Assembly (NCBI GenBank): GCA_012963775.1
Contig: DTVC01000019.1
Span: 8,397-30,731, forward strand
From: Candidatus Pelagibacter sp.
GTDB lineage: Bacteria; Pseudomonadota; Alphaproteobacteria; Pelagibacterales; Pelagibacteraceae
DNA: 22,335 nucleotides
Direction of reading: 5' to 3'
Positions 15,310 to 20,258 of this stretch are shown one piece after another (within the stretch, counting starts at the first letter, position 1; each line of letters starts with the position of its first letter). A program made the position numbers and the translations under genes. The notes beneath the pieces were generated by a model. That model was not told where the DNA came from. It saw only the letters and a list, made by a program, of their open reading frames with translations, and ran no database searches.

Positions 15310-15843
15310 CTATTTTTTCTTTTTAATGCTTTCTTTTTTCGGTTCTTCTTTTTTAGTTTCTGCTTTTTGAACTTCTTGTACTTTATTTTCAGTTACTGAA
15401 GTCTCTGCTGATTTTTCTTCGATTGTTTGAGCAACACTTTCTGTAACTTGTTCTGGTTTAACTTCAACATCAATACCAATTTTCTTCTTAATTTTTTCAG
15501 AAATTCTTGCAGATTTTCCAGTTCTATCTCTTAAATAGTATAATTTTGCTCTTCTTACTTTACCTGATCTAATCACTTTTATTGAATCCACTATTGGACT
15601 GTATAGAGCAAATGTTCTTTCAACGCCTTCACCGAATGATATTTTTCTTACAGTAAAAGATGAATTTAAATCTCTATTTTTTTTTGCGATACAGACTCCT
15701 TCAAAATATTGAATTCTATCTCTTTTTCCTTCTGTAATTTTAACTCCAACCTTAATAATATCTCCTGGAAAAAATTCAGGTAATTTCTTCTCGGCAGCTA
15801 TTTTCTTAACATTGGACTGATTAATTTCTTCGATTGTTTTCAT
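15310..15843 (-). CDS. rplS: 50S ribosomal protein L19 with long charged C-terminal tail
   Basis: L19 bridges the subunits at the 30S-50S interface. The core reads [20 protein letters not shown], then [10 protein letters not shown] and [17 protein letters not shown], ending in [21 protein letters not shown] start at the ATG at 15841-15843 ([11 protein letters not shown]), which matches the usual L19 start. An upstream in-frame TTG at 15856-15858 would add only MINLN and lies almost on the trmD stop. This gives 177 residues against roughly 115-130 in most bacteria. The extra C-terminal 60 or so residues are rich in Glu, Lys, Thr and Val (…[12 protein letters not shown]), look disordered, and resemble the tail on S16 in the same operon. 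Confidence 0.95.
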
Positions 15844-15859
15844 GTTTAAGTTTATCAAT

Positions 15860-16546
15860 TTAATTCTTCTTATATTTTTGCCATAAATCTGGTCTTCGGT
15901 CGCGTGTTATAGCCTCAGATTTGGATAAACGCCAGTCTTTAATTTTAGCATGATCTCCAGATAAAAGTACCTCTGGTACACTTTTTTTCTCCCAAATTTG
16001 GGGTTTTGTATACTGAGGATATTCTAATAATCCATTTTCAAAACTTTCCTCAGAAATCGACTGATCATTTCCAAGGACTCCTGGAATTAATCTTAAAATA
16101 CTATCTAATACTATTAATGCAGCTGTTTCTCCTCCTGATAAAACATAATCGCCAATACTCAATTCTTCTATATTTCTTGTATCAATTACTCTTTGATCAA
16201 CTCCCTCAAAATGTCCACAAATTAGATTTATAGTTTTTTCTTTTGATAACTTTTTTGCAAGCTTTTGACTAAACAATTTACCTTTTGGAGTTAAATAATA
16301 TATTTTTTCGTTTGTTTTAACATTTTGATCTAAAGAATTTGCTAAAACATCCGGCTTGATTAGCATACCTGATCCTCCTCCAAATGGAGTATCATCTACA
16401 GTTTTGTGCTTATCTGATGAATAATCCCTTATATTTACAACTTTTAAGTTCCAGATATTGTTTGATAAAGCTTTACCATATAAACCTTTGTTCAAAGGCC
16501 CAGGAAACAATTCTGGATAAAGTGTAAATATTTGAGCCTGCAGCAT
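15860..16546 (-). CDS. trmD: tRNA (guanine-37-N1)-methyltransferase
   Basis: A 228-residue SPOUT methyltransferase that makes m1G37 in tRNAs reading CNN and some GNN codons, preventing +1 frameshifting. Trefoil-knot AdoMet-binding segments are present: [12 protein letters not shown] (83-94), [13 protein letters not shown] (108-120) and the knot loop [19 protein letters not shown] (126-144). The active-site region [13 protein letters not shown] (173-185) and [17 protein letters not shown] (190-206) are intact. The start lies 2 bp after the rpsP stop, whereas in most proteobacteria rimM stands between them. No separate ribosome site beyond purines inside the end of rpsP. Confidence 0.97.
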
Positions 16547-16548
16547 GA

Positions 16549-16986
16549 TTATTTTTTCTCTTTTCCTTGATTAGTTTCTGCTTTTTTCTCTTCTACTTTT
16601 GGTGTTTTAGCTTCTTTTGCTTTTGTAGCTTCTGCTTTTTTCTCCTCTGCTTTTGGTTCCTTAGATTTATCTGCTTCATTTTTTTTTCTATCTTTTTTAG
16701 GAATAGCTTTCTGAGGATTATTTCCACTCGCTGGCATAGGAATTAATTGGTTTTCACCCAAAATTCTAGCTACTCTTATGGTGGGTCTAGCGCCTTGGCT
16801 CAGCCAATATTTTATCCGATCTGACTCGAGCCCAACTCTTTCCTTTTTTTCTTTTGGTAGTAGAGGATTAAAAAATCCTAGTTTCTCAATAAATCTTCCA
16901 TCTCTTGCAAACCTACTGTCTGCCACTACAATTTTATACACAGGTCTTTTTTTTGTTCCACCCCTAGATAATCTTAGTTTTAACAT
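16549..16986 (-). CDS. rpsP: 30S ribosomal protein S16 with Lys/Ala/Glu-rich C-terminal extension
   Basis: S16 is an early-binding 30S assembly protein. Residues 1-80 are canonical: [38 protein letters not shown] and [15 protein letters not shown]. The product is 145 residues against about 80-90 in the minimal form; the last 60 or so are a low-complexity Lys/Glu/Ala tail with an internal repeat (EEKKAE twice). Start ATG has the best ribosome site of the operon, AGGAGA at 16991-16996, in the 13-bp gap after ffh, consistent with high expression. Extended S16 tails are known in alphaproteobacteria; this one is lysine-rich and probably disordered. Confidence 0.96.
16576..16656. repeat. Imperfect 27-bp tandem duplication inside the rpsP tail
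   Basis: The stretches at 16576-16602 and 16630-16656 are identical except for two substitutions and lie 54 bp (18 codons) apart, in frame. They encode the repeated KVEEKKAE / KAEEKKAE units of the S16 tail. The tail therefore appears to have grown by in-frame duplication. Confidence 0.75.
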
Positions 16987-16999: not shown

Positions 17000-18358
17000 T
17001 TATTTTAATTGATTAAAAAGCTCTGGAGGTATTCCTTTGTCAGTCATACCTTTCACGTTGCCTTTTGACATCTTCTTCATCATTTCAGACATCATTTTAA
17101 ATTGCTTTAACAATTTATTGATAGTGGCTACATCTGTACCAGAGCCATTAGCAATTCTTTTTCTTCTGGAACCATCAATTATTTTTGGGTTCTCTCTTTC
17201 TTTTTTTGTCATAGATAAAATTATAGATTCATTTTGCGTTATTATTTTTTCATCCACTCCAGCTTGATCCATTTGTGATTTTATTTTCGAAACTCCAGGC
17301 AAGAAAGACATAACTCCTTCTACACCACCCATTTTTTTCATTTGTCTCAATTGAGTTAAATAATCCTCCATTGAAAAGTTTCCTTTTTTTAAATTTTCTT
17401 CTGTTTTTTTTATATTTTCTTCACTAATGTTTTGAGCTGCTTTTTCTACTAAAGAAACAATATCTCCCATACCAAGAATTCTGTTTGCAATTCTATCGGG
17501 GTGAAAAACTTCTAAATTATCTATTTTTTCTCCAATTCCTAAGAATTTAATTGGAACCTTTGAAACATATTTCATGCTTACTGCAGCTCCACCTCTGGCA
17601 TCACCATCTGCCCTAGTTAAAATTATTCCTGTAAGATTAATTGTGTTTTTAAACTCTTTTGCAACCTCCGCTGCTACTTGACCTGTTAAAGAATCTGCAA
17701 CTAAAAAATTTTCAGTAGGATTAATAATGCTTTCAATTTGTTTGATTTCGCTCATCATTTGAAGATCGATTTGAGTTCGGCCAGCAGTATCGAATAAAAT
17801 AATATCTGCTCCATTAAGATTAGCTGCACTTATTGCTCTTTTACAGATGTCGGATGGAAGTTGTCCATCAATTACTGGTAATGTGAGAATATTGTTTTGT
17901 TCACCTAAAAACTTTAATTGTTCTTGTGCAGCTGGCCTATAAACGTCTAGGCTAACCATCATTATTTTCTTTTTTTTATTTTTTTCTAAATATTTTGCTA
18001 TTTTTGCAGTCGTAGTAGTTTTTCCTGATCCCTGTAAACCAACTAACATCATTGAGACAGGAGGAACTGCATTTAAATTGACATCATAACTAGTATCTCC
18101 AAGAAGATTTACAAGCTCATCATAAACAATTTTAACCATCATCTGGCCTGGTGATGTTGATCTAATTATTTCTTCACCTAAAGCTTTAGGTTTTAGTTTT
18201 TCAATAAATTCTTTTACAACAGGCAAAGATACATCAGCCTCTAATAGAGCCTGCCTTATATTTCTTAAACCCTTATCTACCTGTTTTTCATCAAGAGATG
18301 GTGCTTTTTTTAAAGAAGAAAAAATTTCTTCAAATTTATTTGTCAAATTTTCAAACAT
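17000..18358 (-). CDS. ffh: Signal recognition particle protein Ffh (SRP54)
   Basis: A 452-residue GTPase that, with SRP RNA, targets signal sequences of membrane proteins to FtsY. N domain about 1-90 ([18 protein letters not shown] start), G domain with G1 [13 protein letters not shown] (107-119), [11 protein letters not shown] (138-148), G3 DTAGR (190-194) and [10 protein letters not shown] (248-257), then the methionine-rich M domain ending in the RNA-binding stretch [13 protein letters not shown] and [12 protein letters not shown] start at the ATG at 18356-18358; an upstream in-frame start would add only eight residues (MRLLLDEI) and lies within the structured leader. First gene of the long minus-strand cluster. 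The SRP RNA gene itself is not in the window. Confidence 0.97.
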
Positions 18359-18434
18359 AATTTCGTCCAGCAGCAACCGCACTAGTGGGCGAACCCTCGC
18401 TGACTAGTGTCGATCTCTTTGTTTCCAAAGACAT
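18351..18434 (-). CDS. Possible 27-codon leader ORF overlapping the ffh start
   Basis: Within the ffh leader, ATG at 18432-18434 opens a 27-codon frame: MSLETKRSTLVSEGSPTSAV followed by AAGRNYV. Its TGA at 18351-18353 lies 5 bp inside ffh, so the two frames overlap by 8 bp. Such an overlap permits termination-reinitiation coupling. The frame reads through hairpin 2, so its translation would open that hairpin. There is no Shine-Dalgarno, and short frames arise by chance, so I treat it as a candidate only. Confidence 0.25.
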   Translation of the reverse strand: MSLETKRSTLVSEGSPTSAVAAGRNYV

Positions 18435-18464
18435 CGCAAATTGCTGATTTTGCGGAAACGAGAA
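18359..18464 (-). ncRNA. Structured 5' leader of ffh (two hairpins)
   Basis: The DNA between the shared promoter and the ffh ATG is far richer in G+C than its surroundings and folds into two hairpins. Hairpin 1 (18421-18459): an outer stem pairs GTTTC with GAAAC, an inner stem pairs CGCAAA with TTTGCG, and the loop has 8 nt. Hairpin 2 (18380-18409): CACTAGT pairs with ACTAGTG, continues as GGG with CCC, and closes with UUCG on the minus strand, with a 6-nt bulge on one side. The leader would begin just 5' of hairpin 1. It does not look like 4.5S/SRP RNA or tmRNA. It may be a cis-regulatory element for ffh or a small RNA processed from the leader. Confidence 0.55.
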
Positions 18465-18467
18465 CAA

Positions 18468-18493
18468 ATTATAATAGAGGTTCAAAAAGTCAA
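18468..18493. promoter_or_regulatory. Divergent promoter region for ffh and dapF
   Basis: ATTATAAT (18468-18475) is self-complementary, so it offers a TATAAT -10 on both strands: plus 18470-18475 toward dapF and minus 18473-18468 toward ffh. On the minus strand TTGACT (18493-18488) is a good -35, though spaced only 14 bp from TATAAT; TAATTT at 16 bp is an alternative -10. The plus-strand -35 is poor. Confidence 0.45.
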
Positions 18494-18516
18494 TAAATAA
18501 GTTAAGTATTAATTAT

Positions 18517-19341
18517 ATGGAATTCAAAGCTTATAAAATGGACGGTCTTGGTAATGATTTTGTAATCATTGATCAAAGAATAGAAAATATTCAATTATCA
18601 AAAGATCAAATAGTCAAAATATGTGATCGAAATTTCATTGGATGTGATCAACTAATATTTATTAAAAAGAATGATAAACTTGATGCAAACTTAGAGTTTT
18701 ACAATTCTGATGGTAGTTTTTCTGGAGCTTGTGGAAATGGAACAAGATGTGTGGCCTATTTACTTTCAAAAGAAAAAAATAAAAGTTCGATCGATGTTCA
18801 AACATCATCTGGAATACTAAATTCTAAAATATTAAAAGATAAATTAGTTGAAACAGAAATTGGTATGCCAAAAACAAAATGGAATGAAATACCTTTGAAT
18901 AAAGAATTGAATACTAAAAACCTTAATTTTAAAATTTTAGATAAAAAAAATAATGAATTTATTGGTGGTATAGCAATTAATGTTGGTAATCCTCATATAA
19001 TTTTCTTTGTAAAAAATATTGATGATTTTGATTTAAAGAAAATTGGACCTGAAATAGAAAATAATAATCTTTTTCCTGAAAAATGTAACGTAACTCTTGC
19101 CAACGTAATTAATGAAAATTTAATTAGAATAAAAGTTTGGGAAAGGGGGGCTGGACTAACTAAAGCTTGCGGAACTGCTGCATGTGCAGCTGCGTATGCG
19201 GGTAAAATAAATGGACTAGTAAAATCTAAAACCGATATAGAATTTGAATTAGGCAAGCTTTCAATTTTTATTGATGATAAAGATAGTATCCATATGAAAG
19301 GACTAGTTTCGGATATAAAAAATTTAGAAATAAAAATTTAA
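18517..19341 (+). CDS. dapF: Diaminopimelate epimerase
   Basis: A 274-residue PLP-independent epimerase converting LL- to meso-diaminopimelate for lysine and peptidoglycan. N-terminal KMDGLGNDFVIID (7-19). The two catalytic cysteines are Cys72 (SGACGNGTRC) and Cys218 (TKACGTAACAA), in the two pseudosymmetric domains. NVGNPHIIFFV (155-165) and VWERGAGLT (207-215) are standard substrate-binding blocks. Length is normal. The stop overlaps the ftsY start (TAATG). In many alphaproteobacteria a MiaB-like methylthiotransferase gene lies between dapF and ftsY; here it is absent. No Shine-Dalgarno is visible before the ATG. Confidence 0.97.
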   Translation: MEFKAYKMDGLGNDFVIIDQRIENIQLSKDQIVKICDRNFIGCDQLIFIKKNDKLDANLEFYNSDGSFSGACGNGTRCVAYLLSKEKNKSSIDVQTSSGILNSKILKDKLVETEIGMPKTKWNEIPLNKELNTKNLNFKILDKKNNEFIGGIAINVGNPHIIFFVKNIDDFDLKKIGPEIENNNLFPEKCNVTLANVINENLIRIKVWERGAGLTKACGTAACAAAYAGKINGLVKSKTDIEFELGKLSIFIDDKDSIHMKGLVSDIKNLEIKI

Positions 19342-20258
19342 TGGGAATATTTGAAAAATTTAAATTAGGTTTCAAGAAAAGTGCATCTACGTTTGCTTCT
19401 GGTCTAAAGGACATCATTGTTAAAAAAGAAATTGATGATGAAACTTTAAATAAAATTGAAGATTATCTAATTCAGTCTGATGTTGGTACTGGTGCTGCAT
19501 CAGAAATTAAAGATGTTATTGCACAGGAGAAAATTGATCCTAAAAAAAATATTATGGATGAAGTAAATACAATTCTTAAAAATTATATTATTACTGTAAT
19601 GAAACCTTTGGAAAATGAAAATTTTTTTAAAAATAGGAATGAATTGAGCGCAATACTTATTTCTGGAGTTAATGGTGTTGGTAAAACAACAACCATCGGT
19701 AAATTAGGTAAAATTCTAAAATCTAATGGAAGTAAAGTTGTGTTTTCCGCATGTGATACCTTTAGAGCGGCCGCTATCGAACAATTAGAAAATTGGGCTA
19801 AAAAAATAGATGTTATGATAATTAAATCTAATCAGAAATCTGATCCGGCTTCAGTTGCTTATAAAGCTATAGAGTATGCTATAACAAATAAATTTAACTA
19901 TGTATTAATTGATACGGCCGGCAGGTTACAAAATAAGAAAAACTTAATGGACGAATATAGAAAGATTGCAAATGTAACAAAAAAAATTGACCCAAACGCA
20001 CCTCATGAAGTTATATTGGTTCTAGATGCAACATCAGGTCAAAATATAATTAACCAAGTAGAAGAGTTTAATAAAATTATTCCTATTACAGGTTTAATAA
20101 TGACAAAGTTAGATGGAACAGCTAAAGGCGGAATCCTTATTGCTTTAGCTAAAAAATATAAATTACCAATAATTGCGTTAGGACTTGGTGAAAAAGAAGA
20201 CGATTTACAAATATTTAATGCAGAAAAATTTGCTAATGCATTTATCCAATCTAATTAA
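19341..20258 (+). CDS. ftsY: Signal recognition particle receptor FtsY
   Basis: A 305-residue SRP receptor GTPase that docks Ffh-ribosome complexes at the SecYEG membrane site. It has only the NG domains: N domain about 1-95 (MGIFEKFKLGFKKSASTFAS, an amphipathic membrane-binding start), G1 ISGVNGVGKTTTIGKLG (107-123), CDTFRAAAIEQL (138-149), G3 DTAGRL (191-196), G4 TKLDGTAKGG (255-264) and GLGEKEDDLQIF near the C-terminus. The long acidic A domain of enterobacterial FtsY is missing, as in other compact FtsY proteins. Translationally coupled to dapF. Its last 8 bp overlap the convergent gene that follows. Confidence 0.97.
   Translation: MGIFEKFKLGFKKSASTFASGLKDIIVKKEIDDETLNKIEDYLIQSDVGTGAASEIKDVIAQEKIDPKKNIMDEVNTILKNYIITVMKPLENENFFKNRNELSAILISGVNGVGKTTTIGKLGKILKSNGSKVVFSACDTFRAAAIEQLENWAKKIDVMIIKSNQKSDPASVAYKAIEYAITNKFNYVLIDTAGRLQNKKNLMDEYRKIANVTKKIDPNAPHEVILVLDATSGQNIINQVEEFNKIIPITGLIMTKLDGTAKGGILIALAKKYKLPIIALGLGEKEDDLQIFNAEKFANAFIQSN

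Follow-up and report, generated by a model that had tools for sequence, protein, structure and literature searches.

The closest described relative of the RNA considered here is the ffh RNA motif (Rfam RF01793), which was reported in 2009 (PMC2704228) as a single bulged hairpin in the 159-nt gap between dapF and ffh of Pelagibacter, and which was also detected in Rhodobacterales, Sphingomonadales, and Rhizobiales. The available part of that report leaves the function of the ffh RNA open. Our literature search by name and accession, including rpsP leaders, covered few subscription journals and sources represented in part, and among these no experimental test of the ffh RNA was evident. Two other systems are also relevant: 4.5S SRP RNA (RF00169), a functional neighbour that is the RNA partner of Ffh, and a leader for S16 that has been proposed in Flavobacteria (PMC7247131, accessible part). 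In addition, a table from the accessible portion of PMC5596092 places an RF01793 RNA in a Mesorhizobium huakuii intergenic region coded Pb-19, possibly on a plasmid.

The ffh RNA and its surroundings in the window

An earlier sequence-only reading of the window (the whole 22,335-nt stretch of DNA analysed here) had proposed a conserved RNA of regulatory type upstream of ffh and had suggested, with some uncertainty, that a motif at this place was already catalogued. The suggestion was correct, and the proposal is supported by a match to RF01793 and by the covariation described below, although the regulatory role itself is presumed. The suggested Rfam scan of the region yielded RF01793 at 18372..18424 on the minus strand, with 53.8 bits against a gathering score of 35. 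The score lies 18.8 bits above the cut-off, and no other Rfam family reaches its gathering score in the window. The element is the ffh RNA that was catalogued in 2009, with the same hairpin at the same place before ffh and in the same group of organisms. SRP RNA was also considered as a candidate identity and rejected, as the window contains no RF00169 hit at the gathering score.

The RNA lies upstream of ffh (17000..18358, minus strand; ATG at 18358-18356), the first gene of the operon, whose product, the SRP protein Ffh, was recognised by its SRP54, SRP_SPB, and SRP54_N domains. Three genes assigned by Pfam matches follow on the same strand, namely rpsP (S16; 16549-16986), trmD (15860-16546), and rplS (L19; 15310-15858). 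The divergent neighbours of the leader, both on the plus strand, are dapF (18517-19341), identified by similarity to relatives and by the gene order published in the available part of PMC2704228, and, directly after it, ftsY (19341-20258), which was assigned to FtsY because the SRP54 GTPase and N domains are present without SRP_SPB. Within the window's operon (15310-16986), rpsP is followed by trmD without rimM; at another locus (L163, described below), rimM lies between these two genes.

As the sequence-only reading had noticed, a G+C-rich island separates a promoter-like sequence from the ffh ATG. The G+C content is 48.1% in 18359-18464, compared with 30.2% in the whole window and 17.3% in 18465-18516, and fewer than 0.1% of 106-nt windows match this richness. 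The promoter-like sequence (18466..18493, minus strand) is present exactly as TTGACT (18493-18488), a 16-nt spacer, and TAATTT (18471-18466), but when one mismatch is allowed the pattern is no rarer in the window than chance (2 occurrences versus 2.56 expected), and a generic promoter scan called no promoter in the window. Conservation of the -35 box is better promoter evidence than the pattern match. Our SAR11 set comprised 80 SAR11-type ffh loci (the best 80 of 578 relatives), with 47 distinct leaders; the catalogued hairpin (P4) was located in 79 of the loci and in the window. Upstream of P4, at -84 or -85, TTGAC was found in 80 of 80 leaders of this set (again drawn from the best 80 of 578 relatives). 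It was also found near -78 in 14 of 14 leaders from an order without detectable SRP (see below) and at varied offsets in 109 of 119 other alphaproteobacterial leaders, whereas a control position gave it in 22 of 118. This conservation would place the transcript start beside the 5'-terminal hairpin (P2), at a predicted position near 18459. The presumed transcript (18459-18380, minus strand) has three hairpins in a row, P2, P3, and P4, with a z-score of -4.69, and none of 200 shuffles was as stable.

Three hairpins in the leader

Where two hairpins had been read from the letters, three are thus present. P4 (18380..18409, minus strand) is the catalogued hairpin, identified by the RF01793 match and by pair covariation. 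It had been described as 7+3 bp closed by UUCG, which proved wrong: the stem consists of 7 bp, C.C and A.C mismatches, and 4 bp of GCGA/UCGC. Eleven of the 12 modelled pairs are changed on both sides (64 distinct rows), and sequence is conserved inside the stem at GCGA/UCGC and its neighbours. The window has a bulge with two conserved C, as do 153 of the 155 leaders examined; as the pattern required C.C, only the two failures (L074 and L150) are informative. These two leaders, which have no C.C register, were excluded from the P4 counts, and L153 and L155 are weak. A diverse set of 126 leaders, in which L233 and L265 were kept despite doubtful P4 registers, was used to examine the position beside the C.C. 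It can pair in 81 leaders (C-G 64, G-U 7, G-C 6, U-A 4), and the unpaired cases are A-C (35), A-A (8), and U-U (2); the published internal loop is therefore often a single C.C mismatch. Alignment A2 contains 75 of 79 prepared rows, the near-duplicates L001, L036, L079, and L175 having been excluded. In the window, P4 lies 20-odd nt from the start codon and does not cover it.

Both RF01793 and the published structure have one hairpin, whereas the ffh RNA is larger than catalogued: a covarying hairpin, P3, belongs to the element, and in SAR11 P2 does as well. P3 (18411..18436, minus strand) lies directly 5' of P4 and carries a GAAA loop of the GNRA type; RF01793 models only its 3' part, as unpaired. 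Three kinds of evidence identify it, namely GNRA conservation, swap tests, and covariation in a short-P3 subset. Among the 47 distinct SAR11 leaders (from the best 80 of 578 relatives), the loop is GNRA in 46 (GAAA 38, GUAA 4, GCAA 2, GGGA 1, GGAA 1) and AAAA in the remaining one, and at least 10 of the 11 P3 pair positions are kept in 46. The letters of P3 are very different in other alphaproteobacteria, with the pairing kept. When arms of P3 were swapped between species, with P4 as positive control, cognate arms paired better (n = 66, p = 7.9e-9; leaders thinned from 74 to below 75% identity with at least 70 nt upstream). The same result was obtained in a second set (cognate better in 50 of 69, p = 2.1e-7) and in the diverse set (n = 126, p = 5.0e-16).

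The short-P3 subset (alignment A1) comprises 24 leaders selected for the fit of a 14-nt P3; 25 leaders had been fitted with at least four of five pairs, and L148 was excluded as its register looked wrong. In this subset, changes on both sides were observed for each of the five P3 pairs. Pairing was found in 95.8% of the P3 cells, a percentage that leans to P3 because the leaders were selected for such a hairpin. When P3 and P4 were evaluated jointly, four of five measures were reached by none of 500 shuffles, and the fifth (further pair types) was attained by 175 of 500. Evidence for P3 that is free of this selection comes from the swap tests. The comparison across relatives that the sequence-only reading had suggested thus revealed covariation in P3 and in P4, whereas an absence of covariation would have refuted that reading by its own terms.

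P2 (18435..18454, minus strand), a CGCAAA/UUUGCG hairpin at the 5' terminus, was recognised from fold z-scores and the predicted fold of the transcript. It is supported in SAR11 (mean z -2.28, 12 SAR11-type leaders), suggestive in the group without detectable SRP (z -1.60, nine leaders, p = 0.055), and weak elsewhere (z -0.86, 61 leaders). As 2 nt are common to P2 and P3 in the window, the outermost pairs of the two hairpins compete. Of the nested 5' hairpin proposed previously, the inner part corresponds to P2 and stands, but its outer helix, GUUUCC/GGAAAC, was dropped in favour of the overlooked P3, whose GNRA loop it would use. This outer helix might still form as an alternative fold; among the 47 distinct SAR11 leaders (from the best 80 of 578 relatives) it could pair in full in 37 and has lost at least one pair in 10.

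Two other folds were considered. A closing stem between the 5' end and the tail (P1), favoured by single-sequence folds, was no different from the control in the first swap test. When 126 leaders were subjected to a contiguous-helix test, two of the four placements showed a weak excess (p = 3.6e-4 and 3.7e-5), with p values of 0.08 and 0.47 for the remaining placements and of 0.22 and 0.44 for the controls. We do not claim P1, because its 5' strand would coincide with the predicted transcript start or precede it, both in the window and in the other leaders inspected. A fold of 18448-18372 is likewise not claimed, as it relies on a loop sequence that is variable among SAR11.

Distribution of the RNA and an order without detectable SRP

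The enlarged structure provides a better search model. When a model of P3, P4, and the tail (R1) was searched against 289 alphaproteobacterial genomes, 176 matched at E ≤ 0.01 and 170 at E ≤ 0.001. RF01793 matched 75 of the 289 at E ≤ 0.001, with 59 above its cut-off. The following comparison is based on class runs at unequal limits (0.001 for RF01793 and 0.01 for R1, six R1 genomes lying above 0.001): R1 recovered 72 of the 75 RF01793 genomes, missed G146, G195, and G245, and added 104 genomes. Among the additional places, the 60 with the best rank (from 59 genomes, together with a second one in G013) were retrieved, and all of them precede an Ffh homologue on the same strand. In the first-search loci, the gene after the RNA is ffh in 68 of 74 cases and rpsP in three, and the contig ends in the other three; rpsP comes after ffh in nine of the ten motif-bearing loci that were read. 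The leaders of ten genomes without an R1 match were also inspected, and no convincing match to R1 was found in them (best 11.7 bits, L272). Seven of these ten genomes keep ffh followed by rpsP, and therefore the operon can do without the RNA; at L279, however, the match to Ffh has a mere 28% identity and could instead be FtsY. Three R1-negative loci (L271, L274, and L277), from small genomes of 0.8-1.0 Mb, share the window's dapF / ffh-rpsP order but have an A+T-rich leader; there the RNA was either lost or never gained. G013 (contigs C63 and C595; L149 and L213) contains two R1 matches, the second also before an Ffh homologue, which reflects either a duplication or a mixed assembly.

RF01793 as published lies before ffh, whereas in one order it lies before rpsP. 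At L110, L125, and L131, the gene downstream of the RNA is rpsP and not ffh, and the three genomes concerned contain neither the Ffh M domain (0/3) nor the SRP54 GTPase domain that is common to Ffh and FtsY (0/3). The order is represented by 18 genomes of one family (G180 and its kin; L110, L125, L131, L161-L163, and L165-L177), in none of which the SRP54 GTPase domain was found over the cut-off, with a single sub-threshold match of 41 residues. The SRP54 domain was over the cut-off in 276 of 289 class genomes and in 14 of 14 controls, and three of the 13 class genomes without a match are from this SRP-less order. RF01793 was over the cut-off in 14 of the 18 genomes; rpsP is the next gene in all 14 loci, 34-41 nt after P4, although these are not 14 independent cases because some leaders are identical.

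At L163, rpsP, rimM, trmD, and rplS lie on one side of the leader and dapF on the other, which is the order of the window minus ffh; leuC- and leuD-like frames past rplS were recognised by eye only. At L161, L162, and L163, the gene after dapF (which was identified by Pfam in L163 and by eye in L161 and L162) is a radical-SAM gene, assigned by Pfam in L161 and L163 and by eye in L162. A thioredoxin-like gene comes next, with no ftsY there. The genomes may be incomplete, but true loss is favoured because both proteins are repeatedly missing from a locus that is otherwise intact, and the order may have lost SRP altogether. SRP RNA was found in none of the 18 genomes of the family and in 83 of 96 class genomes; its absence counts little because it was also missed in a SAR11 genome (G003). 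The available part of PMC2704228 lists 4.5S RNA for Pelagibacter. SRP is described as conserved in all living organisms in the accessible part of PMC7844537, and no bacterial order without SRP was evident in the titles and abstract openings covered by our search, which included few subscription journals. Should the loss of Ffh and FtsY be borne out, an entire order of bacteria with small genomes can do without SRP.

Candidate functions of the leader

Ribosomal proteins commonly repress their own operons via leader structures. In both arrangements, that of the window and that of L163, rpsP, trmD, and rplS remain downstream of the RNA. Together with the S16 leader of Flavobacteria, these points favour an S16- or L19-responsive leader. 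On balance, we consider it somewhat likely that the RNA is a cis-regulatory leader of the ffh-rpsP-trmD-rplS operon, under feedback by an operon-encoded RNA-binding protein, S16 in the first place and L19 in the second. Transcription would start at the 5' edge of the leader, and P2, P3, and P4 would fold in succession before ffh is reached. S16, as first candidate, or L19 would then bind a platform formed by P3 and P4, and the bound protein would lower read-through or translation of the operon. What the analysis shows is the membership of the family, P3 with its covariation, the position, the conserved -35 box, and the retention of the RNA before rpsP where ffh was not found; that the RNA regulates at all, which ligand it has, how it is switched, and precisely where transcription starts are inferred. 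The Flavobacteria leader (PMC7247131, accessible part) lies directly before rpsP, as in the SRP-less order, and the same kind of control has been proposed for it. It was described independently in another bacterial group and is likened here by position and proposed control, whereas most alphaproteobacteria have ffh first. Some ribosomal-protein leaders, though not all, resemble the rRNA site of their ligand. When the P4 model was compared with one SAR11 rRNA operon, seven matches at E ≤ 10 were obtained (best 0.61) and no resemblance was seen, a result that neither supports nor excludes S16 or L19.

The RNA probably serves ribosome production and not protein export. Of the two purposes offered by the sequence-only reading, control of SRP protein output is weakened by the RNA standing before rpsP in an order without detectable Ffh or FtsY, and control of the long downstream operon would fit better. 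More tentatively, and with a chance that we put a little below even, the name ffh RNA may be a misnomer for a widespread alphaproteobacterial S16 or L19 leader whose P3-P4 core is half-modelled by Rfam. The order that lost SRP would then be a natural deletion experiment in which the RNA stays on rpsP.

An attenuator or a source of short RNA, in which P4 and a U-rich tail end some transcripts and the small RNA may act in trans, appears unlikely. The tail of P4 is T-enriched in the diverse set (3.78 per 9 nt in 126 leaders, against 2.44 at a control position), which allows partial termination in many species, but the SAR11 tails, including that of the window, are not U-rich (best 80 of 578 relatives), and a terminator scan of the window called P2 and not P4. 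As for a short product, the accessible part of PMC2704228 reports the ffh RNA transcript among small RNAs in metatranscriptomes, a partly available RNA-seq study of Bartonella bacilliformis reports an expressed "ffH leader RNA", and Rfam gives sRNA as the type of RF01793. The fixed place before the operon speaks for a role in cis. Attenuation might also be the way in which the operon feedback control favoured above takes effect.

The idea of 2009 that Ffh (or SRP) autoregulates by binding its own leader seems more doubtful still. It draws on the point made in the available part of PMC2704228 that RNA-binding proteins often control their own mRNA, and on the position of the RNA before ffh in 68 of 74 first-search loci and 60 of 60 additional places. 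The SRP-less lineage makes this guess a sharp alternative, S16 or L19 versus Ffh. As the RNA stays with rpsP where ffh was not found (14 of the 18 genomes in the order without detectable Ffh or FtsY have it there), Ffh feedback is unlikely to be the conserved purpose. Moreover, the same part of PMC2704228 saw no likeness between the RNA and the Ffh-binding part of 4.5S RNA, and the window has no RF00169 match. Very unlikely, finally, is a passive role, in which a 5'-terminal array of hairpins would make the operon mRNA more stable or insulate its translation and no ligand would be involved: P2 does lie at the predicted 5' end in SAR11, and the letters of P3 are free to vary with the pairing kept, but the sequence conservation of P4 (GCGA/UCGC and its neighbours) exceeds the needs of stability.
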